Shown: in pieces, positions 8,291-25,446 of the stretch
How the letters are laid out: every line of letters starts with the position of its first letter
How positions within the stretch are numbered: position 1 is the first letter of the stretch
Virus record (IMG/VR): IMGVR_UViG_3300032083_002617
Span: 1-35,958 of that record
DNA from: a virus
DNA: 35,958 nucleotides
Strand: one strand, 5' to 3'
Position numbers and translations under genes: made by a program
The notes under the pieces: model-generated
The model's database searches: none
Seen by the model: the letters and a program-made list of their open reading frames with translations, nothing else
Told to the model about the DNA's origin: nothing

Positions 8291-8649
8291 GCAGTTGGAC
8301 CCCTCAGGATGGTGAATTCCAGGTCGGCGACGAAGAAGCGGTCGGCGCCGGGCGGCGTGGCGAGCAGGTCGCCGACCAGCGTCAGGTCGCCGGTAGTGTC
8401 GGGCAGCGCGGCCAGGGTGGAGGCGAGGATGCGGCAGGTGATCTGGCGCGCCGGACCGCTAAAGATGCGAAAGCCCTGGTCGGCAGGCGCCGCCGCCATA
8501 TCGAGCGTGAAGGCCTCCGGGTCGGCGGCGTAGCGTTCGAACGTGGCCTTGAAGACCCATCCCGACAGGTCGACGGATGAATTGGCGTCACCCAGCGTCC
8601 ATGTGGCGTAATATCCGGTGCTTTCCTTGGCGGCGAAACGGGATGGCAT
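8287..8649 (-). CDS. Unknown tail-associated protein, 120 aa
   Basis: The product is beta-rich and starts MPSRFAAKESTGYYATWTLG, with a DLSGWVFKATFER strand pair and an LPDTTGDLTLVGDLLATPP middle. Small proteins of this sort often sit between the J-like protein and the fibre as baseplate or fibre-attachment parts. I do not recognise the family with certainty. ATG 8649 follows a good GGAAGG Shine-Dalgarno and the stop overlaps the tailspike start, so the two are translationally coupled. About 60 bases with no gene separate it from the J-like gene. Confidence 0.75.
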   Translation of the reverse strand: MPSRFAAKESTGYYATWTLGDANSSVDLSGWVFKATFERYAADPEAFTLDMAAAPADQGFRIFSGPARQITCRILASTLAALPDTTGDLTLVGDLLATPPGADRFFVADLEFTILRGPTA

Positions 8650-8711
8650 ACATCATCCTTCCTCACGCACTGCGGGGCAGGCGCGGATGTCTGTGGTCAT
8701 GTCGGTGGCGG

Positions 8712-10682
8712 TCAGGGGATGCCGGCGGAGTCCAGCCGGGCGATGATCGTCGTAATGTCGCCGGCGCCATAGGCGCCGCCCAATTGCGTTGCGTTGCCGG
8801 CCTCACCGGCCGTCACCGTGCCGGTGGTGACTGGACCCAGCACCAGCCGGTCGGAACGTTCGGCGTCGATCTGATAGGATACCGCGCCCCAATAGTCGGC
8901 ATTGGGATCAACCCCGGCAACGACATAGTCTGTCGCGCTGCCGCTGGTCGAACCCGCCGCGATCCATGCGCCGTCATCCTCCGCATCGGGCGCGGTCGAT
9001 GCCGCCGCATAATCGAAATAGATCCGCGTCACCGCGTCGATCCCGGCCGCGCCGGTAAAGCGCAACGTCGGCGCCCCGTCCGCCCCGCCAACCGACAGTG
9101 ACCAGTCCGCGCCGTCGGGCGCGTCGCTGAAATCCGGTTCCGGATTGGCGATCGCCACCGACCCGTCGTCCAGCTCGTCGGTCGCGGCGGTCCAGTCGAA
9201 CACCTCGACCGCCACTTCGCGCAGGCTGATCTGGTTTTGCCAGCTGACATCCTGGCCATCCGTCTCGATCCGGTAGAGCAGCGCCACCGGCTCACCCGTC
9301 GCGGGCTTCACCCCGAACCGCCTTGATGTCCAGCGCAGCCAGTCGCCATGCTCCGCGCCGACCAGCCGCGGCGGCAGCGTCAGGCTGCGCGTGCGCCACA
9401 GTCGGCCCATTCGCCGCTTCTGTTCGGCAACCCGCTGGGCCTGCGTTCCGGACGTGCAGAGCGTCAGCGCCGGCTGACCCACCTTCGGCTCGCCATCGGC
9501 CAATATGTCGGCGGTGTCGCGGCGAATAGGCGCGCTATGATCCTTCCAGGCCTGGGTCGGCTCGATATATTTGGCCGCGACGGTGTTGACCCATTCTTCA
9601 TCGGTCATGCTGCGAAAATCGCTTGTGCTGACGGTCGATCCTTCGACCAGGTCGTCATCGGTGATGTCCCACAGCACCGGCTGCGCCGTGCCGGGAACGA
9701 CCTCGATCGAACCTTCCCGCTCGACCACCCAGCCGCCGCAGGCCGATGCGATATCATCCTCGGTATCGATATACCGGTCATCCCCGCCAAAGACGCCGCC
9801 GATGCGATAGCGCGGCTCCGTCCCGCCGGCCTTCAGCGCCACCGGCTCGTCGCAGACATTGGCCGGGGCGAAGACATTGGCCGGCGGCGCCTCCACATCG
9901 GTCAAACCGCGCCCCAGCAACAGCATCGCCGGGTCATCGACACGGTCCCCGGCATAGATGCCGCGCACCCAGGTGTGGCGGAAATCGATCGGATTGGCCG
10001 ACCATTCGCGGGTCGTCGGGTCATCCCACCGATGCGGACCGGAACCGCCGACCGTGTCGTCAAGCCGCGCCGAATAGCAGAGCAGGCCCTTCATCAGCCA
10101 GCGGAACGACGCCTGCGGCGACCCGCTGGTCCAGACCGGCTTCTTCGCGTCGCTCTTGTCCGCCTTCCACGCGACATAGACCTTGCACACACCCCTGCCG
10201 CGATCATTCGCGGTCCACGTCGGCGCGCCATCGACTACGGGGCAGTTTGCCAGCACCCAGTCCGGCACTTCATCGTCCCAAGCGCCGGGGCACCAATGGA
10301 CGCGCAGCTGATCCTTGTATCCGGCAACAAAGCCGTTGCCGGTGAAGGGCACATATTTTTCGAACACGAAAAAGCCGGTCAGGCTGTCGCATTTATGGTC
10401 GGCCAACGCATAGATGCCGACCGTCCATTCCGTCCCGTATTTTCCGCCATAGTTGAACAGATCGACCAGGCTGCCGGCGGTCACGCCTTCGCCGGCCACA
10501 CCTTCGCGCGCGACCTCGCCGATCTGCATCGTATTCTTGTTGGCGGTGCGCGCCTTCATGCTGGGCACCAGCAGCACCGCGCCGATCGTCATCACACCCT
10601 GCGCGATCAGGGCGAGATTGCCGGTGGCGATACCCACGCCAATCATCACCGCGCCGGTGATCACGGTTACGACCTTGGCCAT
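8712..10682 (-). CDS. Tail tip attachment protein J-like (host specificity), 656 aa
   Basis: The N-terminus carries hydrophobic alanine/glycine-rich helices (residues 3-41), as is common in J-like proteins of alphaproteobacterial siphophages. A central region (IGEVAREGVAGEGVTAGSLVDLF, GTEWTVGIYALADHKCDSL, then GLTDVEAPPANVF and a DDRYIDTEDDIASACGGW stretch) fits the Phage-tail_3 hub domain. The C-terminal third contains a fibronectin-like beta domain. It should form the tip of the tail and carry the tailspike. The position after the DUF6950-like gene and before the fibre genes matches the order of lambda and gene-transfer-agent tails. Confidence 0.85.
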   Translation of the reverse strand: MAKVVTVITGAVMIGVGIATGNLALIAQGVMTIGAVLLVPSMKARTANKNTMQIGEVAREGVAGEGVTAGSLVDLFNYGGKYGTEWTVGIYALADHKCDSLTGFFVFEKYVPFTGNGFVAGYKDQLRVHWCPGAWDDEVPDWVLANCPVVDGAPTWTANDRGRGVCKVYVAWKADKSDAKKPVWTSGSPQASFRWLMKGLLCYSARLDDTVGGSGPHRWDDPTTREWSANPIDFRHTWVRGIYAGDRVDDPAMLLLGRGLTDVEAPPANVFAPANVCDEPVALKAGGTEPRYRIGGVFGGDDRYIDTEDDIASACGGWVVEREGSIEVVPGTAQPVLWDITDDDLVEGSTVSTSDFRSMTDEEWVNTVAAKYIEPTQAWKDHSAPIRRDTADILADGEPKVGQPALTLCTSGTQAQRVAEQKRRMGRLWRTRSLTLPPRLVGAEHGDWLRWTSRRFGVKPATGEPVALLYRIETDGQDVSWQNQISLREVAVEVFDWTAATDELDDGSVAIANPEPDFSDAPDGADWSLSVGGADGAPTLRFTGAAGIDAVTRIYFDYAAASTAPDAEDDGAWIAAGSTSGSATDYVVAGVDPNADYWGAVSYQIDAERSDRLVLGPVTTGTVTAGEAGNATQLGGAYGAGDITTIIARLDSAGIP

Positions 10683-10691
10683 ATCCCGCGC

Positions 10692-11087
10692 TCAGCCCGT
10701 GAAGGTCCATGCGGCGATCATGGCCGCGCGCGGACGTCGCAGGATGCCGTGCGTCCCCGGCCCGACCAGCGTGTCACCCTCGACCAGCATCAGCATCATC
10801 CCATGGCCTGGGCAGGCGACGCCCGCCGCATCCCCGCGCCGCGCGAGCGCCGGCGCGACCCGTGGCATATGTGCGTCGATCGCGGCCTCGAAGCCGCCCA
10901 GCCGGGCAATGACCCGCGCCGCGCCGCGCGCGGTCGTCCAGCTGCGCGCGCCGATCAGGTCCACCTGCGCCATCGCCCGCACCGCGCCGACATAGAAGCT
11001 CACACAGTCATTGGCGGCCGATCCCCAGGCAAAGGGCATGGTCCGCCGAGCATCCAGATAGCGCGCCAGGGCAGCGAAATCGCGCAT
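10692..11087 (-). CDS. DUF6950 / NlpC-P60-like tail protein, 131 aa
   Basis: Start is ATG 11087, which overlaps the TGA of the upstream gene (TGATG); the longer in-frame extension would read through that gene. The sequence PFAWGSAANDCVSFYVGAV has the tryptophan and N-D-C pattern of the cysteine nucleophile region of NlpC/P60-like proteins, and ARRGDAA follows further on, as in the DUF6950 family. In the equivalent slot other phages have the lambda K-like peptidase that opens murein as the tail enters. The reduced size leaves enzyme activity uncertain. Confidence 0.75.
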   Translation of the reverse strand: MRDFAALARYLDARRTMPFAWGSAANDCVSFYVGAVRAMAQVDLIGARSWTTARGAARVIARLGGFEAAIDAHMPRVAPALARRGDAAGVACPGHGMMLMLVEGDTLVGPGTHGILRRPRAAMIAAWTFTG

Positions 11088-11662
11088 CAGGCGCTCGCCG
11101 AACTGGGCTTGCCGCCCAGATAGACGATCTTCGTGCCCGCATAGCTGACATGCTTGAAAAAGCCGTCTGCGGGATCGACCGTGCGCTGGTCGGCATCGCT
11201 GCGCATTCGCCTTCCCCTGCGCCCCAGGCCACGCGCCGCCGTCTCTATCGACAGGCTGATGGTCGATGTGCCGCCGACGACATCGTCCGTCGTCGCCGCG
11301 TCGATCCGGCCGCGCTTGAACACACGGCAATCCAGCCGCACCTTGCCGCTGCCGTCATAGATCATGCGATAAAGCTTGGCGGGCGCGCCCTTCACCTCAT
11401 CGGCGTCGAACAGGATCGCGACCTCCGGGGCGACGCCCGACAGCGTCAGCGTCACCGCCTGCTCGCTGGCGCCGATGGAGCCGCCCGTCTTCACGCCGAT
11501 GCTCGAATCGTCCAGGCCCAGATAGACGTCGCCATCAATATCGGTCGGGCCGATCCCGCCCCAGACGAACACGGGCGGGTCGCAATAGATGGCGAGCGCG
11601 CCGGTGACGATCGCTTCGCCGCGTGCGAGCGCCGCCAGCGCCTCGGGGCCGTAATCCTTCAT
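11087..11662 (-). CDS. Tail hub-type protein (DUF2163-like position), 191 aa
   Basis: The start is ATG 11662, with GAGGGG seven bases upstream; an extension to 11737 is open but has no such signal. The product has a beta-rich core (FVWGGIGPTDIDGDVYLGL, SGVAPEVAILFDADEVKG) and the sequence RRMRSDADQRTVDPADGFF, typical of proteins in the gene 13 slot of gene-transfer-agent-like tails. It lies between the distal tail protein and the DUF6950-like gene. Exact family membership is from memory. The role as a tail hub part is inferred from gene order. Confidence 0.75.
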   Translation of the reverse strand: MKDYGPEALAALARGEAIVTGALAIYCDPPVFVWGGIGPTDIDGDVYLGLDDSSIGVKTGGSIGASEQAVTLTLSGVAPEVAILFDADEVKGAPAKLYRMIYDGSGKVRLDCRVFKRGRIDAATTDDVVGGTSTISLSIETAARGLGRRGRRMRSDADQRTVDPADGFFKHVSYAGTKIVYLGGKPSSASA

Positions 11663-11687
11663 GGCTGCCCCCTCATGGTCCGCTGCA

Positions 11688-12377
11688 TCATGGTAACGTG
11701 ACCTGCACGGCGCTGATGATGCCGCCGGACTCGACATGCGATATGATCCGGCGCCCCATGCGCGTGTCGTCCATCAACTTCATCAGGCACATCGCGCTGT
11801 CGAGATGGGCGATGGCATCGACAGGCACGACGTCATGCACCGACGGTTCGACCGATATGGTGATGCTGCCCGCGGCATCTGCCTGGCCACCCGCGACAAC
11901 CGACACCAGAAAGCGCCGGTCATGGTCGCCCGCGTCCGCATCGGCACTGTCCCATTTGAAACCGACATAGTCGCCATAGACCAGCCGCAGGCCCGACGGC
12001 ACATCCTCCAGCGTCAGCAGGGCATTGCCTTCATCATCGATCGACTGCGACCAGCTGCCCGCCGACCCGAAAAAAGGCTGCCCGCCCACGGTCAGCATAT
12101 TGCCGAAGCCGCCGCCATGCGCCGCCGGGAAGGGGCGGGACAGGTCATAGCCCAGAAACATGCGCATCGCGCCGCGCCGGCTGCGATAGAAGGCGTTCCA
12201 CCGATCTGCGGCCTCGAACGTCAGATTGGTGAGGTTCATCGTCAACCGCCAGCGCGGCCAACCCGCCTGCACCCCGCCGATCGCACCGCTCGTCTCGGGT
12301 GCGGTATAGTCCACGCGCTGGGGCTGGAACGTCAGTCCCTCCGCGCCGATGTCCGGCATTTCCGCTATCTTCACCAT
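11688..12377 (-). CDS. Distal tail-like protein, 229 aa
   Basis: This is the first gene after the tape measure, where lambda M or gene-transfer-agent gene 12 (DUF2460 slot) distal tail proteins lie. The sequence is beta-rich, with GGVQAGWPRWRLTMNL early on and WNAFYRSRRGAMRMFLGYDL, the kind of Arg/Phe-rich strand seen in tail tip ring proteins. Its start codon overlaps the end of the tape measure gene. I infer the role mainly from order and give it as likely, not certain. Confidence 0.7.
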   Translation of the reverse strand: MVKIAEMPDIGAEGLTFQPQRVDYTAPETSGAIGGVQAGWPRWRLTMNLTNLTFEAADRWNAFYRSRRGAMRMFLGYDLSRPFPAAHGGGFGNMLTVGGQPFFGSAGSWSQSIDDEGNALLTLEDVPSGLRLVYGDYVGFKWDSADADAGDHDRRFLVSVVAGGQADAAGSITISVEPSVHDVVPVDAIAHLDSAMCLMKLMDDTRMGRRIISHVESGGIISAVQVTLP

Positions 12378-15300
12378 CAGCGCTCTGCCTGGAGTGCACG
12401 GCCATAGGTTCGCTTGTTCGTGTCGAAGACCGACGCCGCGCCCTTGGCCGCGCCTTTTTCCTCGGCGTCGTCCGTCATGCTCTGGATTTTCATCCAGAAC
12501 TCTTCATTCGTCATGACGCCCTGCATATAGATATGGGTGTCGCCGCCGCGTGCATCGCCGCCATTGTCATTGGCGCGCCGCACATTGACCGTCTCGCCGG
12601 CCGTTCCCCAGAATTGCACCAGATTGGTGTCGATCCCCGGCTTGCCACCCACCTCAAATGCCCCGCCAGTCGAAAATCCCGGCAGGTTGCGCGGGATGGC
12701 GAGCGCAGACGCCATGCTGGCGACATTGGCGTTCGCCGTCGATATCGATCCGGCCAGCGGATTGCCCCCTCCGAAGATGGACCCGATGCCGCTGACGATG
12801 GAGCCCAGAACGCCGCCTCCACCCGTTGAGCCCCCTTGGCCCAGCGCCTGGCGAAACAGGTTGAACAGCATGTCCGACAGGCTGTTCAGCGCCTCTTCCA
12901 TCCCCTTGGCGACATAATCCTTCCACCAATTCTTGACGAAGCCGCCCAGATCCCCGTCCAACGCAGCGCGAAGGCCGCCCCGAAACGTGTCGCGCCATTG
13001 CCCTTGCTGCCGCGCCATTTCTTCTGCATCCAGCTCGCGCGATGCACGATCGCGGGCATCATCTTCGCTTACCTTGCCTTCGCCATCGCGATAATATTGC
13101 TCGGTTCGCCGCGACAGCTCCGCCGCGCGCGATGCCGCGCGTTGCTGCGCATCTGTGTCGCCGCGCAGGCGGGACAGTTCCGCCTCGCGGTCCAGAGCCT
13201 GCGCCCGCGCCATCTTCGCGGCTGCATCTGCGCGGGCGATGTCCACCTGCACCAGGTCTTCAGCCGCCCGCTTCTGCGCCTCTAGCAGAGCCAGGCCCTT
13301 ACCCTGCCAGAACGTCGTCCGCTCCTCCAGATAGGCCTTGTCCGCCGCGATCCGCACCATAGCCTCGTCGCCCCGGATTTCGGCCAGTTGCTGATCCAGA
13401 GCATTCTCGGCTCGCGCGACTTCGCGTGCATCATATTCAGCTTCGGCCGCCTTGACCTCGGCGATATCCTTTTCGGCGGCCAGACGGGCAGCGGATACAG
13501 CCAGCCCGACATCCTCATAATCGCGCTGACGCTGGAACAGGTCCATCTTGTCCTGGATGCGGCGAATTTCATCCTTGTCGTCACGCCCACGCGCGACCGC
13601 CATTTGTTGCTCCAGCCGCATCTGTTCGCGACGGTTGGCCAAGTCCTGCGCCGACAGGCCCGATGTCTTGGTCTTCTTGCCCGCATCCGCATCTTCGAAA
13701 TTCAGATCGGCCGTGCCGAATTCAGGCGTGTTGATGGAGCGGGTATATCCTTCCACCGTCTTTGCGACGGTTTCGAGCGCCTTGGCGCGCGAAAGCAGAT
13801 CCGCCTCCGCCTGGTTGGCCTCTTTGATCGCCGGAGCAACCTTGGGACTGATGACATCGCCACGCGCCGTCATCTTCACTTCTGATTTGGCCTTCGACAA
13901 ATTAGCCTTGGCGCGTTCCAGCGTCGCCCGGGCCGCGATGACTTCGGCCCTCGCCGTCGCCATCGCTTGCAACTCTGCGGCGCGGTCAGCCTTCATCTTG
14001 TCGATGAGCGCATTTCGCGCCGCGCCTGTTGCCGAGACCAGTTGCAATGTCGCAGCTTGCTGCTTTTCATAGGCTGCGGTGGCCCGCTCGGCTGCTTGGC
14101 GGGCAGCCGCATTCGCCTCCACCTTCCGATTGAGCCAAAGCACCAGCAGCGCGATGGCCGTCACTGCCAACCCGATCCATCCGGCCCAAGCCGTCATCGT
14201 CAATCCCACGGCGCGCAGCGCAACGCTGACGCCTGACAGTGCTATGGCGAGCCTGCCGAGCAAGGCGACAAGCGTGCCGATCGGATTGATCAGGCCTGCC
14301 AGAATAGTTCCAAACACGCCGAAGCCACCCCGCAGCAATATGAGCGGCACCACGACCTTGGCTATGCCCATCAAGGCAAGGACCATCGGTCCGGCGGCCG
14401 CCGCCACAGCCCATGTCGCCACCGCGATCTGACGCAACCACAGGGGCATCTCTGCCAGCCCACGCACCACTGACGTCAGCGCATCCTGCACGGCGGTGAA
14501 CGCGGCCAATATCCCAGTTTCGCCCAGCGCGATCTTCAACTGGTCAAATGCGTCGGACAGCCTGCCGGCCGACTCCTCGACCCCCTGAAGCTGGATCGCG
14601 AGCTTTTCACCCGCAACGGTCTCTCCGATCGTCTTTTGCAGATCTTCGAATGCCCGCCCGCCCAGTCGCATCAACCCGATCGCCGTTCGCATGGCGTCCG
14701 CCCCGAATATTTCGGTCAATACCTTGGTGCGCGACCGGTCGGACAGATTGCCCAGCTTTTCGCGAAGCATTTCTGAAATATCGGCCAGATCCTTCATCTT
14801 TCCGGTCGCATCATAAAAGTCGAGCCCCAGCCGCTTCATGATCTCGGCCGCCTCTTTCGACTTGGGCGTCAGGGTCGTGATGAAGGTCTTGAAGCTTGTC
14901 CCGGCATCCGAACCGCTGCCAAACAACGCCGCAGTGCCCGCCAGCGCCGTATTGAAATCCTCGAAACTCACCCCGGCGGCGCCGGCGCCCCCGCCGCCCT
15001 GCGCGATCGCATCCTTGAAATCATTGAAGCCCAGCTTTGACGCGTCGAGCGCGCCGGTAATCTGGTTGACCACAGGTTCTAGGTCGCCCGCCGATTTCCC
15101 GAACTGCGCCATCACATCGGTAACCACTGCGGCGGACTGCCCCAGATCGGCCGCATTGGCGGCGGCAAGACGTAGCGTCTGCGCCAGGCCACCGTCCAAT
15201 ATGTCGCGCGCTGACATTCCCGCCAGCGCCAGCGTTTCGATGCCGTCGGCCGCCTCTTTCGCGCTGCGGCCAACTTGCGGCCCCATTTTTTGCGCCGCCT

Positions 15301-15607
15301 CGCTCAACGCCTCCAGTTGCGCGGGGTCGATCCCGCGCAGTGCCGCATGGACGTTGTTCATCGACTTTTCGAACGCGCCCGCACCGCGCTTGGCGATGAC
15401 CGTCATGCCGGCGAACGGCACGCTGACCGCCGCGCTGAGGCCCAGCGCAACGTTGCGGATAGACCCCTCCAGTTCCTTGAACTGCGACATGACTTCCTTG
15501 GCGAAATCCGCGAGCGCTTCGCGCGCATCCTCGAACCCGTCAAACCAGCCGCGAACGTCGAGGCTTAGTTCACCGTGCATTCCGCCGATGGGAAGATCGT
15601 CGCTCAT
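12377..15607 (-). CDS. Tail tape measure protein, 1076 aa
   Basis: Residues of roughly 60-330 match the TP901-type tape measure core (FEKSMNNVHAAL, IETLALAGMSARDI, VVTDVMAQFGKSAGDL, EIFGADAMRTAIGLM). A cluster of hydrophobic helices follows at about 380-490 (ATWAVAAAAGPMVLAL, LVALLGRLAIAL), then long Ala/Glu/Arg-rich coiled coil to about 870, and a glycine-rich C-terminal region. The protein sets tail length; 1076 residues would suggest a tail near 160 nm if about 0.15 nm per residue applies. ATG 15607 has GAGGT nine bases upstream. Unlike most of the array it is not coupled to the upstream chaperone gene, because an accessory island (15608-16328) lies between. Confidence 0.93.
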   Translation of the reverse strand: MSDDLPIGGMHGELSLDVRGWFDGFEDAREALADFAKEVMSQFKELEGSIRNVALGLSAAVSVPFAGMTVIAKRGAGAFEKSMNNVHAALRGIDPAQLEALSEAAQKMGPQVGRSAKEAADGIETLALAGMSARDILDGGLAQTLRLAAANAADLGQSAAVVTDVMAQFGKSAGDLEPVVNQITGALDASKLGFNDFKDAIAQGGGGAGAAGVSFEDFNTALAGTAALFGSGSDAGTSFKTFITTLTPKSKEAAEIMKRLGLDFYDATGKMKDLADISEMLREKLGNLSDRSRTKVLTEIFGADAMRTAIGLMRLGGRAFEDLQKTIGETVAGEKLAIQLQGVEESAGRLSDAFDQLKIALGETGILAAFTAVQDALTSVVRGLAEMPLWLRQIAVATWAVAAAAGPMVLALMGIAKVVVPLILLRGGFGVFGTILAGLINPIGTLVALLGRLAIALSGVSVALRAVGLTMTAWAGWIGLAVTAIALLVLWLNRKVEANAAARQAAERATAAYEKQQAATLQLVSATGAARNALIDKMKADRAAELQAMATARAEVIAARATLERAKANLSKAKSEVKMTARGDVISPKVAPAIKEANQAEADLLSRAKALETVAKTVEGYTRSINTPEFGTADLNFEDADAGKKTKTSGLSAQDLANRREQMRLEQQMAVARGRDDKDEIRRIQDKMDLFQRQRDYEDVGLAVSAARLAAEKDIAEVKAAEAEYDAREVARAENALDQQLAEIRGDEAMVRIAADKAYLEERTTFWQGKGLALLEAQKRAAEDLVQVDIARADAAAKMARAQALDREAELSRLRGDTDAQQRAASRAAELSRRTEQYYRDGEGKVSEDDARDRASRELDAEEMARQQGQWRDTFRGGLRAALDGDLGGFVKNWWKDYVAKGMEEALNSLSDMLFNLFRQALGQGGSTGGGGVLGSIVSGIGSIFGGGNPLAGSISTANANVASMASALAIPRNLPGFSTGGAFEVGGKPGIDTNLVQFWGTAGETVNVRRANDNGGDARGGDTHIYMQGVMTNEEFWMKIQSMTDDAEEKGAAKGAASVFDTNKRTYGRALQAER

Positions 15608-15675
15608 CTAAGCTGCACCTCAAAAGGGCCGCAGGATCACTCCAGCAGCCTCGCAAACTCGATATACTGATGAAT

Positions 15676-15715
15676 TATCGCGTCAGACCGGCAGCAGCCG
15701 CAGCCCGACGCGATA
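15676..15715. repeat. Perfect 9-bp inverted repeat upstream of the RHH gene
   Basis: TATCGCGTC at 15676-15684 is matched by GACGCGATA at 15707-15715, with 22 bases between. The right arm ends 24 bases before the ATG of the ribbon-helix-helix gene. RHH proteins often bind such repeats and repress themselves, so this is a candidate operator. No T-run follows on either strand, so a terminator is less likely. Confidence 0.6.
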
Positions 15716-15739
15716 GGTCATTTTGGATCGACGGGACGG

Positions 15740-15895
15740 ATGACCCGCCCGCGAACTGGCATCGGTCAAATGATTGGCGTTCGCTTCCAGCCTGAAGACC
15801 TCGCTCAACTCGACAGATGGATTGCGGATCAATCCGACCATCCCTCACGGCCCGAAGCGATCCGGCGGTTAGTCAGGAACAGTATCAAAACTTAA
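15740..15895 (+). CDS. Ribbon-helix-helix domain protein, 51 aa
   Basis: ATG 15740 to TAA 15893-15895, on the plus strand inside the minus-strand late operon. The sequence has the classic RHH layout: a short strand (IGVRFQPE), helix 1 (DLAQLDRWIADQ) and, after SDHPSRP, helix 2 (EAIRRLVRNSI). The SRPEAIRRLV segment is very close to the general CopG/Arc-like pattern. Such proteins dimerise and bind DNA through the strand pair. A perfect inverted repeat lies just upstream. The gene converges on the secreted-protein gene, overlapping its end by 11 bases. No strong Shine-Dalgarno is seen; an in-frame Met at 15770 is an alternative start. Confidence 0.75.
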   Translation: MTRPRTGIGQMIGVRFQPEDLAQLDRWIADQSDHPSRPEAIRRLVRNSIKT

Positions 15896-16283
15896 CCGCT
15901 GGAAATCCTGAAAACGGCTTAAGGCTGCACAGCGCCACAGTCACACTCTTCTTAAATGAAGGCGCTCTCTGATCCACGATATAGCTGTACTCGCCTGTCT
16001 TTCGATTTACTTGCGCATGGAAGCTGATAATCACGCCACGTTCTATGTGGTTGTAAGATCGCAGGATAATCCGGTCTGCAAAAACTTCATCGATTGGCAA
16101 CACTTTGCTACATGGTCGATAGCAATATTGCATCGACTTAAGATCAATCGATAGGTTAACAGCTTCGGCGGTGGGATTGGCGCCCTCCTGCTCCGTCTTC
16201 TGTCCTTCGCAATCCAAATCATATTGCTCAGCTGCTGATACCGGCATCGAAACAGCCGCCAACCCCAATATCAAAATTCGCAT
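15885..16283 (-). CDS. Secreted protein of unknown function (moron), 132 aa
   Basis: A signal peptide is evident (MRILILGLAAVSMPVSAA, cleavage expected after SAA, before EQYDL). The mature part contains four cysteines (25, 54, 58, 119), consistent with two disulfides in the periplasm, and a repeated beta pattern. I have no function for it. A strong GGGAGGA Shine-Dalgarno precedes ATG 16283. Base composition stands out: I count 23 G+C in the 60 bases 16081-16140 (38%), against well over 60% in the tail genes. It interrupts the usual chaperone-to-tape-measure order, as expected for a later insertion. A TATTCT -10-like element in 16284-16328 could give it its own promoter (weak). Confidence 0.85.
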   Translation of the reverse strand: MRILILGLAAVSMPVSAAEQYDLDCEGQKTEQEGANPTAEAVNLSIDLKSMQYCYRPCSKVLPIDEVFADRIILRSYNHIERGVIISFHAQVNRKTGEYSYIVDQRAPSFKKSVTVALCSLKPFSGFPAVKF

Positions 16284-16328
16284 CGAGTCCTCCCTGAAGG
16301 TCGAACCAGAATAACCAACGGTCTCGCC

Positions 16329-16640
16329 TTAAGCCACCTTCCTGATCCTGATCGGCGCGCCCGCCGCCTGCATGTCCTGAAACGCCGCCAGCATCTCGCT
16401 GGTGGATTGCCGGCCATTTGGCTTCGCCGGCTTGGTCAGTTCGTCGAGCGTCGGCAGCAGCTTGTTGCGCGGGTAGCGGTGCAGCACCGCCGTCAGCCGC
16501 GCCTGATGCGTCACCAGGTCCTGATCGAATTTACGGGCAGCGCGATAGCCCGCCAGTGTTGCCGCCAGCATGCGGGGTGTCTGACGCCAGAATGCGTCGG
16601 GGTCACGCCCCGACTGCGCCCACAGCGTCAGCAGCTTCAT
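16329..16640 (-). CDS. Tail assembly chaperone, downstream (T) frame
   Basis: The frame contains DPDAFWRQTPRMLAATLAGY, the hallmark of the alphaproteobacterial tail assembly chaperone family (Phage_TAC/rcc01693-like), followed by a longer tail than usual. ATG 16640 overlaps the TGA of the upstream chaperone (ATGA) but has no good Shine-Dalgarno. The family's usual N-terminal tryptophans (WDW) are encoded just upstream of the ATG in this frame, so the natural product is probably the -1 frameshift fusion described separately, as with lambda gpGT. Independent initiation at 16640 remains possible. Confidence 0.75.
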   Translation of the reverse strand: MKLLTLWAQSGRDPDAFWRQTPRMLAATLAGYRAARKFDQDLVTHQARLTAVLHRYPRNKLLPTLDELTKPAKPNGRQSTSEMLAAFQDMQAAGAPIRIRKVA

Positions 16641-17011
16641 CCAGTCCCAGCTTTTCGCCGCTTCGGCGCCTTTCCCTCCGCACTCTGGCCGTCGTCCGCG
16701 ATTTCCGCCTTGCTCGGCATGGCCGCTTTCAGCGCCCGCGACAGTGCGTCTTTCACGCCGTCCATGCCGGCATCCGACATGATTTCACCCGCTTCCGCTA
16801 GGCTCGTCTTTGGATGATGATTTTGCAATCCGGCGCAGAAGATGGACCGCAACAGCTTCATGCTGGGTTTGTCCTGGATTTGATCGATCAACGCCGGCAG
16901 ATCCAGGCCAGTCTCGTCTTCCAACTCGCAAAAGACGTTGATGTCGAACACCAGCGTGAAGCTGGCGGCGCCGGCCTTGAACGACGCCTCGCCGCGCAAG
17001 GGATTAGGCAC
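16637..17011 (-). CDS. Tail assembly chaperone, upstream (G) frame, 124 aa
   Basis: The sequence PNPLRGEASFKAG then FTLVFDINVFCELEDETGLDL matches the GTA-type tail assembly chaperone family (Phage_TAC_11-like). I place the start at GTG 17011, because GGAGG lies six bases upstream and family members begin just before the PLRGE motif. A farther GTG at 17032 is open but poorer. The gene overlaps the end of the tail tube gene by eight bases. A lambda-type slippery heptamer sits 11 codons before the stop. Confidence 0.85.
   Translation of the reverse strand: MPNPLRGEASFKAGAASFTLVFDINVFCELEDETGLDLPALIDQIQDKPSMKLLRSIFCAGLQNHHPKTSLAEAGEIMSDAGMDGVKDALSRALKAAMPSKAEIADDGQSAEGKAPKRRKAGTG
16670..16676 (-). 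promoter_or_regulatory. Slippery heptamer GGGAAAG for programmed -1 frameshift
   Basis: Read on the minus strand the heptamer is G GGA AAG in the zero frame of the upstream chaperone, the same heptamer and phase used in lambda G/GT. The zero-frame stop comes 11 codons later. A 5-bp stem (CGCCG, AAG loop, CGGCG) begins two bases downstream and might stimulate slippage, although the spacer is short. Confidence 0.75.
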
Positions 17012-17441
17012 CGGCCGCCTCCGTCTCTTCACTGACCCACTTCACGCGCAAAGTGGCCGTGCGACGGTCCAGCATCGGGTTGGAGCGCATATAATTGCGG
17101 ACCAGCACCTCGCCCTCGATTTCCCACGTGCCTTCGCCATTGACCAGCACGATCTTGAAAGCATGTGGGAGGCCGTCATTCTTCGCCTTCCGGCACAGGA
17201 TGTCGGAAGGCGATCCGGGGATATAGTTCATCACCAGATCGGCTTCCTCGCCATCCTTCAGCGGCGCATTGATGAAGCTCTTGTAGCCGATGGTCTTCAT
17301 ATGGCTGGTTTCGACCAGGTCGGCCGTGCCCTCGGGCAGCGGAACCTCGGTCAGTTCGTTCAATTCAACCAAGGCCGGCGTGCCGAGGGTGTAATCCCAC
17401 AGCCAGAATTCGGTCAGATGACCGGTTTCAACGTCACTCAT
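17004..17441 (-). CDS. Major tail tube protein, 145 aa
   Basis: A compact beta-rich protein directly upstream of the chaperones, where the tail tube gene lies in siphophages. Sequence such as LTEVPLPEGTADLVETSHMKT and KDGEEADLVMNYIPGSPSD resembles tail tube proteins of HK97- and GTA-type phages. It should polymerise as rings around the tape measure to build the tube. The ATG at 17441 follows GGAGG. The gene ends at TAA 17004-17006, overlapping the chaperone start. Confidence 0.88.
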   Translation of the reverse strand: MSDVETGHLTEFWLWDYTLGTPALVELNELTEVPLPEGTADLVETSHMKTIGYKSFINAPLKDGEEADLVMNYIPGSPSDILCRKAKNDGLPHAFKIVLVNGEGTWEIEGEVLVRNYMRSNPMLDRRTATLRVKWVSEETEAAGA

Positions 17442-17455
17442 GTCAGGAGCCTCCT

Positions 17456-17872
17456 TCAGGCCGGTGAAAATCGGATCATCAGATCCGTCGAAGTGCGGTA
17501 AATCGGACCGTTCGGCGTGGACTCGCTCAGGTCGCGCGGCCCATAGACCGACGCCGGTCGGAAATAATAGCCATGGTCGCGGTAGCGCGGCCGCAGGCAG
17601 GCAATCGCCGCGTCCCGCAACTGCTGCGCGGCGATGACGGACAACGCATAGGTGTCCACCTGCAACCGCTGGAATTGCAGCGCCTGCAGGCCCTTCATAT
17701 GTTCGGCCAGCTGACTGGGCACCCAGGTCAGGACGATGGCGGGCATCGCCGATCCCTGCGCGCGCAATACCCAGAAAACCGCCTTGCTGGTCTCATAGTC
17801 GGCCAGACGCTCCGATACGGGCTCGGCTTCGATCAGCCGCAGCCGCACCGCATCTTCGATATCCATCGTCAC
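17456..17872 (-). CDS. Tail completion/terminator protein (DUF3168-like), 138 aa
   Basis: Size, position just before the tail tube gene and the pattern MDIEDAVRLRLI, then FQRLQVDTYALS and later DLMIRF, agree with the DUF3168/lambda gpU-like tail terminator group. It would cap the tail tube where it meets the head. The frame begins at GTG 17872, overlapping the previous stop as GTGA with AGGAAGG four bases upstream; ATG 17866 is two codons later and may be the true start. Confidence 0.8.
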   Translation of the reverse strand: MTMDIEDAVRLRLIEAEPVSERLADYETSKAVFWVLRAQGSAMPAIVLTWVPSQLAEHMKGLQALQFQRLQVDTYALSVIAAQQLRDAAIACLRPRYRDHGYYFRPASVYGPRDLSESTPNGPIYRTSTDLMIRFSPA

Positions 17873-18267
17873 GCCGCCTTCCTGATGTCCGCCCAGAGGG
17901 AATGACCCATGGCGCGCCGAACTTCTTCCCGGCTATTGTCCAGCGCTGGCCGCATGAACGGGTGCGCCGCCGAATGCGACGTGCCCAGCTCGACCATATG
18001 GCCGTAGAACCCTTCTCGCTTTGACGGGCCGATATAGACTGTCGAGAAATAGCGGCGCTGCGTCACGCTCGCGAAATTCAGCCCACCGTCGAAACTGATG
18101 ATGATGCTGTCGCGCAGCGTGCCGGTCATCACCGGCACTAGCCTCTTGGCTTCTGCCTGGACGATGACCGCCCCTGCCATCAGGGATCGTTCCCGCGCCG
18201 CCGGCGACACCGCCTCACGAATAGCCACCAGCTTGCGGTCCATCGCGCCAGCGCCGACGAACTTCAC
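17869..18267 (-). CDS. HK97 gp10-like tail completion protein, 132 aa
   Basis: The sequence KRLVPVMTGTLRDSI, then FYGHMVELGTSHSAAHPFMRPAL matches the HK97 gp10 family, in which the G-T-S/P and HPFMRPA motifs are diagnostic. Such proteins act at the head-tail interface. GTG 18267 overlaps the stop of the head closure gene as GTGA. The stop overlaps the next gene in the same way. Confidence 0.88.
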   Translation of the reverse strand: MKFVGAGAMDRKLVAIREAVSPAARERSLMAGAVIVQAEAKRLVPVMTGTLRDSIIISFDGGLNFASVTQRRYFSTVYIGPSKREGFYGHMVELGTSHSAAHPFMRPALDNSREEVRRAMGHSLWADIRKAA

Positions 18268-18635
18268 CGCGCGACCGTTTCCGCCGTGATGCGAAAGCCC
18301 TCATTACTGCCGAGCGGCGCGATGCCCCGAATGTCCCACGCCGGCCATTTCTCCGGATCGGCATCGCGGATCGGATAATAGAGGCGATTGCCGACGCTCA
18401 ACGCCCTGGTGACGCTGTTCGCCAGAACCTCGAATGACGCGCGCTGCACGCCACTGTCCTGCGCGGCCGTGCGCTGTTCCTCGCCCGACCCGAAATAGAC
18501 CGCCGCCCAGGCTCTGCCCAACAACTCCCACGTCTCATCCAGGGTCGAATGACCACGCCCGTCCACACCGGCGCGTTTGGCCTTGAAAGCGATCCGCTTG
18601 TCGCGCCGCCCCGCTTTCAGGCTTTTCGCAGCCAT
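18264..18635 (-). CDS. Phage head closure / head-tail joining protein, 123 aa
   Basis: The sequence RRDKRIAFKAKR near the start, TWELLGRAWAAVYFGSGEEQ in the middle, and LYYPIRDADPEKWPAWDIRGIAPL fit the head-tail adaptor (HK97 gp7 / SPP1 gp16-like) family. The start at ATG 18635 overlaps the TGA of the connector gene (TGATG); an extension to 18665 is open but would overlap much more. It should close the connector after packaging. Confidence 0.85.
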   Translation of the reverse strand: MAAKSLKAGRRDKRIAFKAKRAGVDGRGHSTLDETWELLGRAWAAVYFGSGEEQRTAAQDSGVQRASFEVLANSVTRALSVGNRLYYPIRDADPEKWPAWDIRGIAPLGSNEGFRITAETVAR

Positions 18636-19159
18636 CAGACAGCCCAGTTTCGATAGCTGCGGCACAAATCTTTCGCCGCTTCTTCCGCGTCCCCGGCAAT
18701 GCCACCTGTCTCGCGGTCATGGTAGAAACTGGCCACCAGTTGGCGGATCGCCTGCATGATCGGCGGCGCATAATCGTTGATTGCATCCGCATCTTCGAAG
18801 CCGGCTGTCATCAAGACTTCAATCTTGCTGCCTGCCGCCTGACGCGGCCACCTGTCCGCCAACAGCCGGGCAGGCCGCCCCATCAGATCCGGCACGAAGC
18901 TGCCTACGGATAGAGACTGCGACGCGCGGGCATGATCAAGGAAAGTTACACCATCGACCGAGATGACCGGCCAAGCGCGAAGCCTGTGACCGAACTGCGG
19001 TATGGTCTCGCGCACCTGCCGCCGCGTCAGGATCAACCCGGTATAACGCTCCACCCATCCACGCGCAGCGACGATGGCTGATGCAATCACCTCATTGTCA
19101 TCGTCGCCGTCGACGCGCAGCTGCGCCTTGGCCTGATCCAAGGTGATTGGCTCCGCCAT
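18635..19159 (-). CDS. Head-tail connector protein (HK97 gp6-like), 174 aa
   Basis: The N-terminus LDQAKAQLRVDGDDDNEVI followed by ARGWVERYTG is characteristic of gp6-like connectors, which form a ring under the portal. The rest contains a beta insert and a C-terminal helix (IMQAIRQLVASFYHDRE) with the usual tyrosine/histidine ending. It lies between the small protein at 19173 and the head closure gene. Confidence 0.88.
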   Translation of the reverse strand: MAEPITLDQAKAQLRVDGDDDNEVIASAIVAARGWVERYTGLILTRRQVRETIPQFGHRLRAWPVISVDGVTFLDHARASQSLSVGSFVPDLMGRPARLLADRWPRQAAGSKIEVLMTAGFEDADAINDYAPPIMQAIRQLVASFYHDRETGGIAGDAEEAAKDLCRSYRNWAV

Positions 19160-19172
19160 CGCCAGCGCTTTC

Positions 19173-19418
19173 TTATTCGGCCCGGTCGGCGAGGTTTTTC
19201 TCGACCGCTTCCTGACCGCTCAGCGTGGGATCGTTGAAATCGATCTTATTCTGTTCGCTGGTCGTGCCGGCGCGTGGGTTGTCATCGACTGCGGGATGCG
19301 ACAGATCGACATCCGGGACGATCTGCTGGGGCGCACCGGCGGCGTCGACGGTGGTCGCCGGATCGATCTTGGCGGGAGCATCGGCGGGCTTTTCCGCCTC
19401 GGTCTTCTTGACGGTCAT
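19173..19418 (-). CDS. Small disordered protein of the head module, 81 aa
   Basis: This is an 81-residue protein rich in Ala, Pro, Asp and Lys without hydrophobic core (for example VKKTEAEKPADAPAKIDPA, then HPAVDDNPRAG), so it is probably disordered apart from a short C-terminal helix (GQEAVEKNLADRAE). AGGAG precedes ATG 19418 by eight bases. It lies between the capsid and connector genes. It could be a head decoration or assembly factor, but no family is recognised. Confidence 0.75.
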   Translation of the reverse strand: MTVKKTEAEKPADAPAKIDPATTVDAAGAPQQIVPDVDLSHPAVDDNPRAGTTSEQNKIDFNDPTLSGQEAVEKNLADRAE

Positions 19419-19470
19419 GATAATTCTCCTGAAGTTGACCGAAACGGCGCCGCAGCGTCGCTTCGATCAA

Positions 19471-19495
19471 CCGGGCCGACATGCCGCCGGCCCGG
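19471..19495 (-). other. GC-rich hairpin downstream of the capsid gene
   Basis: CCGGGCC at 19471-19477 pairs with GGCCCGG at 19489-19495 around an 11-base loop. It lies 10 bases beyond the capsid stop. There is no T-run on the minus strand, so it may stabilise the capsid message or attenuate transcription rather than terminate. Confidence 0.45.
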
Positions 19496-19505
19496 AGATG
19501 GAAGG

Positions 19506-20879
19506 TCAGGCGGCGATCTTGATCGCCTTCATCGAATCGGGGTTCTGGACGCCGCCACCGGTCCGCTTGGTGACGTAGAAGCAGACATAGGGCTTGTTGG
19601 TGTAAGGGTCGCGCAGGATGCGCACGCCGATCCGATCGATCACCAGATAGGTCTCCCGCATATCGCCAAACAAAGCCGCGACGGCGTCGGCGGCGACATT
19701 GGGCATATCGGGCACATCCACCACAGGGCGGCCCAGCAGGGTGGAAGGCTGGCCCGCCACATAGGTCGGCTGCCAGATATAGTTGCCTTGGCCATCCTTC
19801 AGCTTGCGGATCGCGCCCAGCGACGACCGGTTGAGGAAGAACTTGGCGTTCGGCTCATACATCGCAGGCAATGCATAAACCGCCGACACCAGTCCATCGG
19901 TCGTGAACAGCGTCGCATTGCCACTGTTCATGACCTTGATGTCGCCCCACGGGTGGCGAGCAGCATTCGCCCCGCCTGTGACATAGGTCAGGATACCGAA
20001 CGGCTTGTTGGAGCCATCGCCCGAAAGATGGGCAATCCCCTCCTGACGGGCGAACTCGGTTTCGATTTCACCCGTCAGCCATGCTTCGATGTCAATCTCG
20101 CTGTCGTCGAGCAGCTGCTGCGACGCGGCGGCATTGGCATAGATCTCGCCCAGGCCGAACGCGAGGGAAGTAAACTGCGGCGTACTGGTGGCCGGTCGCG
20201 ATGCCGTTTCACCAACCCATCCGCTCCCGACCGCCCGATCGGTGAACAGCTTGGTGAAGCCTGCGGTGCTGATCGACTGCACGGTGGCTTCCTGGCGGAT
20301 CGGCGATATCAGCTTCAACCGTCCGGTGATGGTACGATCCCACTCGATCGGCGTCGTGTAACCGCCGTCGGTGTTGCTGCCCTCGCTCATCGCGGCGCGC
20401 GGCGTGCCGGGACGATGCGCCGCCTTCAGCTTTTCTTCCTCTTCCCGCCCGCCTTCGCGCACATAGGAGGCGAAGAGGCCCGAATATTCGGGATCGGCCA
20501 ATGCCGGCTGACTGGTGCCGCCCAGGTTGGCAGCTGCCAGCTTGGCCGCATGATCATTGAGAGAGGTTTCGAGCGAATTCAGGGTTTCGTTGATCTTGCC
20601 GAGCTTGTCGTTGACTACCGTGTCGTCTGCCTTCGCCCCGAGATTTGCCTCGATCGTCGCCTTGAACTCGTTGTGCGCCGTCTGCAGCGCAGCGATCATC
20701 GCCTTGGGATCGCCGGTTGCCTCCGCGCGCACGGTCGTGCCGATCAGCGCGCGCGGCACTACAGGCAGCGTCGGGGGCGTCAGGTCCAATGTCGGTTCAG
20801 CAGCGGCGGTGAGCGCGCGGAACGGGTGGGCAAGTAGGGTCGCCATCGCCATAAGGGCGATCTTGGGGTGGTACTTCAT
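19506..20879 (-). CDS. HK97-type major capsid protein, 457 aa
   Basis: The region from about residue 160 carries the HK97 capsid signature: GSNTDGGYTTPIEWDRTI, ISPIRQEATVQSIS, WVGETASRPAT, LLDDSEIDIEAWLTGEI and the terminal KPYVCFYVTKRTGGGV. About residues 60-135 are helical and coiled (HNEFKATIEANLGAKADDTV, NETLNSLETSLNDHAAKLA), as in the scaffolding delta domain that the protease removes. The ATG at 20879 has AGGAG six bases upstream. Oddly, residues 1-47 look like a signal peptide (IALMAMATLLAHPF, TAAAE). Confidence 0.95.
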   Translation of the reverse strand: MKYHPKIALMAMATLLAHPFRALTAAAEPTLDLTPPTLPVVPRALIGTTVRAEATGDPKAMIAALQTAHNEFKATIEANLGAKADDTVVNDKLGKINETLNSLETSLNDHAAKLAAANLGGTSQPALADPEYSGLFASYVREGGREEEEKLKAAHRPGTPRAAMSEGSNTDGGYTTPIEWDRTITGRLKLISPIRQEATVQSISTAGFTKLFTDRAVGSGWVGETASRPATSTPQFTSLAFGLGEIYANAAASQQLLDDSEIDIEAWLTGEIETEFARQEGIAHLSGDGSNKPFGILTYVTGGANAARHPWGDIKVMNSGNATLFTTDGLVSAVYALPAMYEPNAKFFLNRSSLGAIRKLKDGQGNYIWQPTYVAGQPSTLLGRPVVDVPDMPNVAADAVAALFGDMRETYLVIDRIGVRILRDPYTNKPYVCFYVTKRTGGGVQNPDSMKAIKIAA

Positions 20880-20893
20880 AGGAACTCCTGGTT

Positions 20894-21895
20894 TTAGGTG
20901 CGAAGATCGTTGAGCAGGGACTGCGCCGCAGCCATCCACTCGTCGTCGTTGCCGCCAGCGCCAGGCGTGTCGGCGGGGTCTTGGGCAGCGCCGGACGTGC
21001 CCTTGATATTCTTGATGCGGGCGCGCGCCTGCGTTCGCGTCAGGCCGCTGGAAATCAGCGCCATTTCCGTGGCGCGCACATCGTTACCGTCACGGTCCGA
21101 TGCCTTGGCTTTCTCATCGACCTTCGTCTGATCCGCCGGCAGCAGCGCGTCGGCAAATCCCCGATCGATGGCCACCGAACCGGACATATAGGTTTCGGCA
21201 TCCATCCATTTGACGCAATCAGCGACTTTCTGACCGCTACGCTGTGCATAAACATCGGCCATGGCCTGGTCGAAGGGGGCGAGATATTCGGCCACTTCCA
21301 GCATGTCGTTCCGATTGCCAGCAGCATAGACCCAGCAGTTATGGATCATCAGGAACGATGCGGCGCCTATTTGCACTGTGTCGCCCGCCATGGCGATGAT
21401 TGACGCGGCAGAAGCGGCCATGCCCATCACCTTTACGGTAACGTCCTGCGGATGCTCGCGCAGAACATTGTAGATGGCCAGCCCCTCGAACATGTCGCCG
21501 CCAGGGCTGTTGATCTGCACCTCGACAGGCCGATCGCCAATGGCACGCAGCTGGGCCGCAACCTTCTTTGCTGTTACCCCGCCCCCGGTCCACCAATCCT
21601 CGCCGATGATGTCGAACATGGTGATGACATTGTCACCAAGCTCCAGTGCCACTGGCCGGATGCCTGCAGCGTCTGCGTTCCAGCGGTCCAATACCGAGGC
21701 GGGTGCGAATGCACTGACATCGCGGCTTGCCGGTATGGGAAGGGCGCCGGGCCGCGCGCGCGACTGAATCCCGCCAATCACAGCGGCGGGCTTGCCGGGG
21801 GCAGGTTGCGTAGGCTTCGCCCCCGGTGCAGGGCGCGTGCCGATGGTCTTGACGGCTTCGGGCTTCGCCGGTGCCGGCGCAGGATCAGTCATCAT
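20894..21895 (-). CDS. Head maturation protease, ClpP-like, 333 aa
   Basis: The ClpP fold is clear: VEVQINSPGGDMFEGLAIYNVL, then VMGMAASAASIIAMAGD with the nucleophile serine and FLMIHNCW with the active histidine. It should cut the capsid delta domain during head maturation. Residues 1-70 are a proline/alanine-rich linker. I start at ATG 21895 (second ATG at 21892), because AAGGA lies five bases upstream; a longer frame to 22009 runs through the end of the portal gene. The gene overlaps the portal stop by 11 bases. Confidence 0.92.
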   Translation of the reverse strand: MMTDPAPAPAKPEAVKTIGTRPAPGAKPTQPAPGKPAAVIGGIQSRARPGALPIPASRDVSAFAPASVLDRWNADAAGIRPVALELGDNVITMFDIIGEDWWTGGGVTAKKVAAQLRAIGDRPVEVQINSPGGDMFEGLAIYNVLREHPQDVTVKVMGMAASAASIIAMAGDTVQIGAASFLMIHNCWVYAAGNRNDMLEVAEYLAPFDQAMADVYAQRSGQKVADCVKWMDAETYMSGSVAIDRGFADALLPADQTKVDEKAKASDRDGNDVRATEMALISSGLTRTQARARIKNIKGTSGAAQDPADTPGAGGNDDEWMAAAQSLLNDLRT

Positions 21896-23180
21896 CGCTT
21901 TCCTTCGGTTGCGTTGCCGGCTTGGCGCTTTGCTTCGGTAGGTCGTTGCCATCCGACCGCGGATTAAGGTCAAATGCGCCGCGAACTTCATTTGGCGTGC
22001 GGTAGGCATTGCCCTGACCCAGTGCCTTGGCGAAAAATTCCGCCTGATCTTTCAGCGATCCCCGCAGCAGTGCGCCCTCGTTGAACTTGACGTAAAGTTC
22101 ATCGGCATCCTGCTCGGTTGGCGTCAGACAGGAACGCTCGATCGCCTGTTCCCATGCGACGAACCACGGCATCAGGCAGTAGGTAACGAAGAATAGCCCC
22201 AACTGCTCGATACCGCTGCCCCAGCTTGTCTCATCGAACATGAGTAGTGGACGGGGAACGCCGGTTACGCGCGAAACCTCTTCTGCCTGACGCTTGCGCA
22301 GTTCGTCATATTGCGCGTCTTTCGCCGATGTGACGAACGGCTTGGCCCTTAGCCCTTCCTCCAACACCATCCATTCGCCGGCATTTTCGGCACCAGAATG
22401 ATCTTCGCGCAGGCTTTCCTGCAGCCGCGCCACCGCTTCATCGCCAAGAGTCTTGTCGGTTTCCAGCGCGCCGCCAGCCATCACGCCGCTACCCAGCAGC
22501 TTTCCAGCGGCTTTCTCGGCTTGGCTCGCAATACCGATGGCGTTGCAGGCGACATCGATCAAATCCATGCCGATCAGCCCGTCACGGCTGATGGGATGGC
22601 GGAAATGGAACACGTCAGCACTGCTTAAGATCGCGGTGCCACCGGTTGGGCGGCGATATTCGAATGTTAGCCGCCAGTCGTCGGAAAGCTTCGGCGTAAC
22701 CGTTCTGCGCTTCAGGGGCACCAGCTGTACAACCTTGCCGCCAAGGCCCCGGATGATCAGGGCATAGGCATTACCGTCAAGCAGGGCGAGCGACTGCATG
22801 TAGCTTTTGAACTCGAAGGCCGTCTGATATTGGTTCGGCCGCTTGTGCAGCACGCGGTAAAGCGGGTGGTCCTTCGCCTTCTCAATTCTCTCTTCGCCAT
22901 TCACAGTCTGCCGACGCATCAGATGCGTCGGCAACATGCCGATGGATCCGGCGATGACGTTCAGCGCGCGGAAAAAGGTGCTGTTGCGCAGCGCCATTTT
23001 CTCCGAAACAGATACACCCGATGCGCTCACGCGACCGTCGCGCAGAAACTCGCGCAGCACCGGACTATCAAAATCCATGGCAGTCAGTGCGTGGACATGC
23101 GGCCGAATGACCTGCGGGGCACCTTTTTGCGCACTGGAACGGCGAAAGCCGGACGCGGCGCGATAGTCGTCGGGCGACAT
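21885..23180 (-). CDS. Portal protein, HK97 family, 431 aa
   Basis: Motifs of HK97-type portals are present: ALRNSTFFRALNVIAGSIGMLP, DHPLYRVLHKRPNQYQTAFEF, LLDGNAYALIIR, VFHFRHPISRDGLIGMDLI, EVSRVTGVPRPLL. The protein forms the dodecameric ring through which DNA enters and leaves the head. The start lies five bases after the large terminase stop. It ends in a short acidic tail (KESDDD). Confidence 0.95.
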   Translation of the reverse strand: MSPDDYRAASGFRRSSAQKGAPQVIRPHVHALTAMDFDSPVLREFLRDGRVSASGVSVSEKMALRNSTFFRALNVIAGSIGMLPTHLMRRQTVNGEERIEKAKDHPLYRVLHKRPNQYQTAFEFKSYMQSLALLDGNAYALIIRGLGGKVVQLVPLKRRTVTPKLSDDWRLTFEYRRPTGGTAILSSADVFHFRHPISRDGLIGMDLIDVACNAIGIASQAEKAAGKLLGSGVMAGGALETDKTLGDEAVARLQESLREDHSGAENAGEWMVLEEGLRAKPFVTSAKDAQYDELRKRQAEEVSRVTGVPRPLLMFDETSWGSGIEQLGLFFVTYCLMPWFVAWEQAIERSCLTPTEQDADELYVKFNEGALLRGSLKDQAEFFAKALGQGNAYRTPNEVRGAFDLNPRSDGNDLPKQSAKPATQPKESDDD

Positions 23181-23185
23181 GCGGG

Positions 23186-25398: not shown

Positions 25399-25446
25399 AA
25401 AAAATCCCTACGTGGGAGGACCGGCGGTGCAGGGGCGACCACCGTC
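25399..25446. other. Candidate cos / packaging site region
   Basis: This 48-base gap between HNH and small terminase contains an inverted repeat, CGGTG (25425-25429) with CACCG (25440-25444), flanked by GGAC (25418-25421) and GTCC (25444-25447). In HK97-like phages with an HNH protein beside the terminase, cos lies in this neighbourhood. No cleavage position can be read from sequence alone. Confidence 0.35.

Follow-up and report, generated by a model that had tools for sequence, protein, structure and literature searches.

A candidate moron encoding a predicted exported four-cysteine protein lies between the tail chaperone and tape measure genes of a sphingomonad siphophage

In the 35,958-bp IMG/VR record analyzed here (the window), whose late genes all lie on the minus strand, we found that the 721 bp separating tail assembly chaperone 2 from the tape measure protein (TMP) gene are filled by two open reading frames (Table 1). 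One encodes a predicted exported protein with four cysteines, referred to here as Sec4C, and the other encodes a ribbon-helix-helix (RHH) protein. Our sequence comparisons indicate that Sec4C is an undescribed protein family and that the same family recurs at the same junction across phages with unrelated TMPs. The best overall explanation, to which we assign a probability of about 0.5, is that Sec4C is a moron in the chaperone/TMP slot of a Sphingobium siphophage, that its product is exported, alters the envelope and blocks DNA injection, and that the RHH gene comes from a second cassette. Within this explanation, the accessory moron architecture is very likely, envelope conversion in carrier cells is somewhat favored, and exclusion at DNA injection, argued by analogy, is a tentative assignment whose odds fall a little short of even. 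A moron in the chaperone/TMP slot is known from HK97, while the Sec4C family is new.

Table 1. Features at the chaperone/TMP junction of the window and their supporting evidence
Feature	Position	Strand	Basis
Tail assembly chaperone 1, GTA-gp10 / Phage_TAC_11-like	16637..17032	-	PF11836 21.8 bits (below cut-off); phrog_2115 tail protein E 1.7e-25
Tail assembly chaperone 2, Phage_TAC_6-like, phrog_19318; left edge of cargo slot	16329..16640	-	PF09550 18.7 bits (below cut-off); phrog_19318 E 4.6e-39; homologues in relatives
Shine-Dalgarno-like AGGGAGGA ahead of Sec4C start	16288..16295	-	Sequence
Sec4C, 132 aa, predicted exported, four conserved Cys, predicted small beta-barrel; cargo	15885..16283	-	Sequence, homologues, model
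RHH (CopG/phrog_4738-like), 51 aa, DNA-binding by family; convergent with Sec4C	15740..15895	+	PHROGs, relatives
9-bp perfect inverted repeat, arms 15676-15684 / 15707-15715	15676..15715		15-nt arms 87% complementary
Intrinsic-terminator-like hairpin; right edge of cargo slot	15622..15650	-	GGCTGC-T-GGA-GTGA-TCC-T-GCGGCC-CTTTT, -14.5 kcal/mol
Tape measure protein (TMP), PhageMin_Tail	12377..15607	-	PF10145 E 1.3e-43

The N-terminus of Sec4C, MRILILGLAAVSMPVSAAEQ, resembles a signal peptide and is the sole membrane-segment candidate in the protein; here and below, calls of signal peptides and membrane segments come from the sequence itself and a simple hydropathy rule rather than from a trained predictor. 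Sec4C of the window contains exactly four cysteines, the first of which, at position 25 (in ..EQYDLDC), comes after an A-X-A-type site, and it has no lipobox cysteine. The first-pass annotation had described a signal-peptide protein with four cysteines, a stretch of 38% GC, a convergent RHH gene with an 11-bp overlap and a perfect 9-bp inverted repeat before the RHH gene, and all of these were recovered in our analysis. We found no family for Sec4C in Pfam, PHROGs or NCBIfam, no PDB sequence match and no match in a phage collection searched by tblastn, and a search of plasmids returned a single match, on a Sphingopyxis plasmid, at 31%. The structure model of Sec4C is of high confidence (pLDDT 89, pTM 0.76) and all-beta, and the protein is predicted to be a small exported beta-barrel. 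A Foldseek search of the PDB with this model gave nothing at E <= 0.001, VIA-align gave middling matches (Z up to 8.3) to generic small ligand-binding or lipoprotein barrels, and the Foldseek viral library gave p58 of Myxococcus phage Mx8 (E 5e-4, TM ~0.4), which is encoded outside the tail region. Since the nearest structures are generic barrels with middling scores, the fold gives no function for Sec4C.

Profile-guided searches identified Sec4C in 21 IMG/VR contigs beyond the window's own record, 16 of which were found by the sequence of Sec4C itself. Among these 16, Sec4C lies directly after a tail chaperone in 15 contigs, and TMP is the next long late gene in 13; the exceptions are a contig whose TMP gene lies 5 kb further on (L137), a contig that ends just past Sec4C (L136) and a copy located elsewhere (L119). 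In L137, a 449-aa transposase-like ORF at 8192-9541 (-) separates the Sec4C-RHH pair from the distant TMP gene. The copies of Sec4C are divergent, with around 30% identity, and all 21 sequences retain the four cysteines and a G-[FL]-P..[KR]F-like tail. The GC content of Sec4C is below that of its locus in each of the 20 copies measured. TMPs beside Sec4C comprise four groups with no detectable N-terminal similarity (E 1e-5, single linkage), and the nearest relative of the window's Sec4C (L127; 42% identity, support 0.98) is accompanied by a TMP of another group. A few homologues were found outside phage tail regions, in sphingomonad genomes (L109 and L111). At L111 5747-6325, a nuclease-like gene, identified by eye, adjoins the Sec4C homologue, outside a tail region.

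We found that the chaperone/TMP junction is a recurrent cargo slot that is either empty or filled with unrelated genes. Junction relatives were IMG/VR and GTDB contigs fetched via chaperone and TMP similarity; the survey lists were built from pattern-seeded searches and are hence an uneven sample, and because 397 sphingomonad-family genomes gave only 2 with the same TMP family, the survey rests on IMG/VR contigs. Empty junctions in related phages span ~7-110 bp, and 16 were called empty in the survey. In a second TMP family, the chaperone and TMP genes are separated by a gap of <=66 bp or overlap in L147, L155, L156, L159, L162, L163, L169, L173, L174, L176 and L178, while the filled junctions of this family hold Sec4C, lipoproteins, antisense membrane proteins, a secreted nuclease-like protein and toxin-antitoxin (TA)-like pairs. 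Lipoprotein cargo was found at the junctions of L004, L005, L030, L035, L142, L146, L151, L152 and L157, and membrane-protein cargo at those of L003, L025, L029, L031, L034, L144, L145 and L150. The cargo of L003, L031 and L034 consists of membrane or zinc-ribbon/TM proteins, that of L025 of a TM protein together with an RHH and a Bro-N gene, and that of L026 of a DUF2846 protein (Pfam). By eye, we also identified HigBA-like (L172) and RelBE-like (L175) antisense pairs in the slot, and a secreted thermonuclease-like protein as the cargo of L158, where it is encoded by an antisense ORF within 4539-5001. The premise of the first-pass annotation that this interval normally has no cargo therefore fails, since the junction is filled in many relatives and in HK97.

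A moron, in the sense of Juhala and Hendrix, is an insert that separates two genes which are neighbors in a relative; it has deviant base composition, its own promoter and a factor-independent terminator, and it is expressed from the prophage. The Sec4C insert shows three of these properties, namely insertion, deviant base composition and a terminator. In the closest relatives of the window, L024 and L027, the junction contains no cargo, and 12 bp separate the chaperone stop from the TMP ATG, compared to 721 bp in the window. The GC content of Sec4C is 48% versus 63% in its surroundings, and 23/60 positions (38%) are G or C at 16081-16140. The claim of the first-pass annotation that this is an inserted accessory module is supported by the short gap in L024 and L027, by the atypical GC and by the moron architecture with its terminator. 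The situation that the annotation had named as refuting, with both genes shared by every related phage at equal GC, was not observed. The sequence-level support for a Sec4C moron consists of the insert, its edges, its low GC, the terminator and the recurrence at the same junction with unrelated TMPs.

We hypothesize that the slot between chaperone 2 and TMP has been taken up by a small foreign transcription unit. Sec4C would be made while the phage is carried, with the terminator keeping the Sec4C transcript out of the TMP gene. The protein would then be exported, its four cysteines would form disulfides, and the resulting small periplasmic beta-barrel may alter the envelope. The leading specific role, suggested by the position and architecture of Sec4C and by the precedents of gp15, Ltp, SNIPE and Tab, is that Sec4C would block TMP-dependent DNA injection by other siphophages, as gp15 and Ltp do. 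Alternatively, Sec4C may be an envelope-conversion moron that serves general host fitness through ligand binding, surface shielding or resistance to periplasmic attack rather than phage exclusion. The generic barrels found as its best structural neighbors (Z up to 8.3) would suit such a protein, as would the homologues of L109 and L111 outside tail regions and the mixture of envelope proteins and TA pairs that makes up the other slot cargo. We regard a general fitness role as unlikely, as it leaves the recurrence of Sec4C beside TMP across TMP groups unexplained, although a permissive insertion slot alone could explain this recurrence.

The late strand of the window carries a hairpin with a CTTTT tail 14 bp ahead of the TMP start codon; neither this terminator nor the co-directionality of Sec4C with the late genes was recorded in the first-pass annotation. 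Using one fixed rule to search within 75 nt upstream of TMP, we found a terminator at 18/18 junctions whose cargo is one co-directional gene, compared to 3/13 junctions with antisense cargo, 3/16 empty junctions and 16/376 random windows of the same loci. The difference between junctions with co-directional cargo and the rest gives a Fisher P of 4e-8, with classes assigned by the analyst after an earlier look at terminators. The test omitted the multi-gene junctions L025, L127, L128, L132, L134, L137, L165 and L175 as well as some filled junctions in which no cargo ORF stood out clearly, and the window was represented in it by its near-identical C100 copy (L007), RHH included. A terminator after Sec4C is what an independently transcribed moron would need.

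It could also be proposed that Sec4C is a late lytic periplasmic protein, acting for example in a late block of re-adsorption or superinfection or in lysis tuning, and that the terminator merely tunes TMP output. Indeed, Sec4C is co-directional with the late operon and starts 45 bp past the chaperone 2 stop with a strong Shine-Dalgarno, and we found no separate promoter for it: there is no sigma-70 consensus at 15450-16500 of the window (sphingomonad promoters may differ), and no promoter signal is enriched upstream of Sec4C across 20 relatives. The absence of an integrase match from the window record points the same way. However, terminators track co-directional cargo rather than TMP, as they are mostly absent at empty and antisense junctions, and similar envelope cargo is often antisense and thus beyond late-operon expression. 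A late lytic role therefore appears rather improbable to us.

Expression of the Sec4C module in the lysogen is plausible from the sequence records. An integrase scores over the Pfam cut-off in 8/11 Sec4C-bearing records tested. The window record, which is classed as linear, has no Phage_integrase and no HTH_3 match, and it encodes two ParB-like proteins at 33321-35941 (-); possibly the phage is maintained as a plasmid, or else part of the record is missing. A 35-kb contig of Sphingobium sp. C100 shares approximately 17 kb of the late half (window ~8485-25468) at an identity of 99% or more, and elsewhere on that contig one 700-bp stretch (83%) is the only other nucleotide match to the window. 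This marks a mosaic junction near window 25468, and outside the shared part the C100 contig encodes a phage-repressor-like protein (identified by eye).

The RHH ORF lies on the strand opposite to Sec4C, and the 3' ends of the two genes overlap by 11 bp. RHH scores 17.4 bits against Pfam PF01402, under the 20.5 cut-off, and matches phrog_4738 'transcriptional repressor' in PHROGs at E 1.4e-5. Relatives with the same PSRPEAIRRL core occur in 51 viral loci, including copies that are 60-64% identical, and through these relatives the family assignment of RHH, made from sequence, is firm. In the usual cassette of the relatives, RHH forms the leftward half and is divergent from a small ORF, which is followed by a Rha/BRO-N antirepressor or HNH-type gene and then TMP, and the 76-114 bp between RHH and the small ORF are regulatory DNA with repeated palindromes (by eye). 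In the window, 132 bp lead from RHH to the TMP start, and the divergent cassette genes are missing. As part of this cassette, antirepressor-type genes were observed in the late region just ahead of TMP in L025 (5114-5923, BRO-N, E 8e-23) and L127 (6939-7670 (+), Phage_pRha, E 9e-24). The facing RHH gene probably encodes a CopG-type repressor that derives from this second cassette, whether still functional or a relic; it would be either a remnant or a part of the RHH/small ORF/Rha-BRO or HNH cassette often found in the slot.

RHH is the sole gene left in the window from a second cassette, and a role as a regulator devoted to Sec4C is therefore improbable. The first-pass annotation had taken RHH for the module's own regulator, a reading that makes the pair one dedicated unit, with Sec4C repressed or timed by RHH either directly or via convergent transcription. 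The two genes do face each other in seven contigs (L007, L127, L128, L132, L134, L137 and L216), with an overlap of up to 37 bp or a gap within 8 bp. We nevertheless consider a dedicated unit very unlikely, as a facing RHH is found in 7/21 Sec4C contigs and most Sec4C genes lack one, RHH also lies beside other cargo (e.g., the TM protein in L025), and the palindromes flanking RHH in relatives adjoin the divergent small ORF rather than Sec4C. A toxin-antitoxin reading of the pair was likewise rejected: such a pair would place RHH in a co-directional operon with a cytosolic toxin, whereas here the genes converge and the N-terminus of the partner resembles a signal peptide.

The inverted repeat at 15676-15715 is a possible RHH operator. 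Among Markov sequences of 133 bp, the length of the stretch that holds it, ~1% contain a perfect 9-bp inverted repeat; with 15 repeats of this kind in the 36-kb window, however, it is unusual only on a local scale. It also differs from the palindromes that relatives have close to their RHH starts. Having no T-run, it was rejected as a terminator. At L127 6592-6637 (+), L137 6506-6551 (+), L025 4461-4506 (+), L128 4859-4904 (+) and ~30 RHH loci, the gene that diverges from RHH has in its leader a covarying hairpin, which is followed by an invariant CTAA (nearly always CTAACC). In this hairpin 85% of cells are paired, and 12/13 pairs show double changes (0/500 shuffles). The hairpin has no Rfam match at the gathering threshold; its model detects additional RHH loci with E <= 1e-4 and finds nothing better than E ~0.7 in the window and in cassette-free loci. 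Since it contains very few G-U pairs, the hairpin may act as DNA rather than RNA.

That Sec4C is a neutral hitchhiker, inserted recently and without selected function, would fit its low GC and its variable presence among near relatives but is hardly credible given that the four cysteines and a GFP..KF tail are kept in ~20 copies at around 30% identity. Our preferred reading remains a moron whose product would be exported and act on the envelope. Sec4C stands as an undescribed and widely shared family with a fixed genomic address beside a DNA-entry gene, an address that also has an alternative cargo set. A broader proposal, which we hold as doubtful, is that the chaperone/TMP junction is a general siphophage slot for interchangeable exclusion genes aimed at TMP-guided DNA entry and physically linked to the phage's own TMP gene, that Sec4C would represent a novel type of injection blocker, soluble, periplasmic and disulfide-bonded, and that the RHH/antirepressor cassette uses the same slot. 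If true, such a slot would provide many candidates for how carried phages exclude competitors in alphaproteobacteria, and why exclusion genes adjoin tape measure genes would become directly testable.

Several known systems resemble parts of this locus. The RHH of the window has the PSRPEAIRRL core and is similar to the CopG/RHH_1 repressors (PF01402, phrog_4738), but it scores under the Pfam cut-off, and its cassette partners are missing. In HK97 (L101, NC_002167), the convergent and overlapping genes for Gp22, 'moron product', and Gp23, 'reverse moron product', at 6476-6976 between tail genes I and J have the geometry of Sec4C and RHH at another site. HK97 gp15 is annotated as a 'moron product' in the same chaperone/TMP slot, next to a frameshifted tail chaperone, and is followed by a putative terminator, as is Sec4C. 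Prior work describes gp15 as a predicted envelope (inner-membrane) superinfection exclusion protein, and both gp15 and Ltp of Streptococcus phage TP-J34 act at DNA injection, with TMP changes overcoming both (PMC10883804). In contrast to gp15, Sec4C has no transmembrane segment, contains four cysteines and is a predicted beta-barrel, and the two are likened by position and architecture rather than by sequence. Ltp is an exported phage protein, as Sec4C is by prediction; Ltp is lipid-anchored and functions in a Gram-positive host, whereas Sec4C of the window has no lipobox, a feature that several other slot cargo proteins contain. SNIPE associates with TMPs during injection and acts through them (PMC13190303). 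Tab of JBD26 is a moron that a prophage carries in its late region; it targets the TMP of competitors and blocks tail assembly (PMC10884400); Tab is encoded between terminase genes and acts on assembly, whereas Sec4C, predicted to be exported, is encoded beside TMP. Because Sec4C has neither the membrane segment of gp15 nor the lipobox of Ltp, it belongs to neither type, and at most it can be said, by analogy, that Sec4C may work like gp15 and Ltp.
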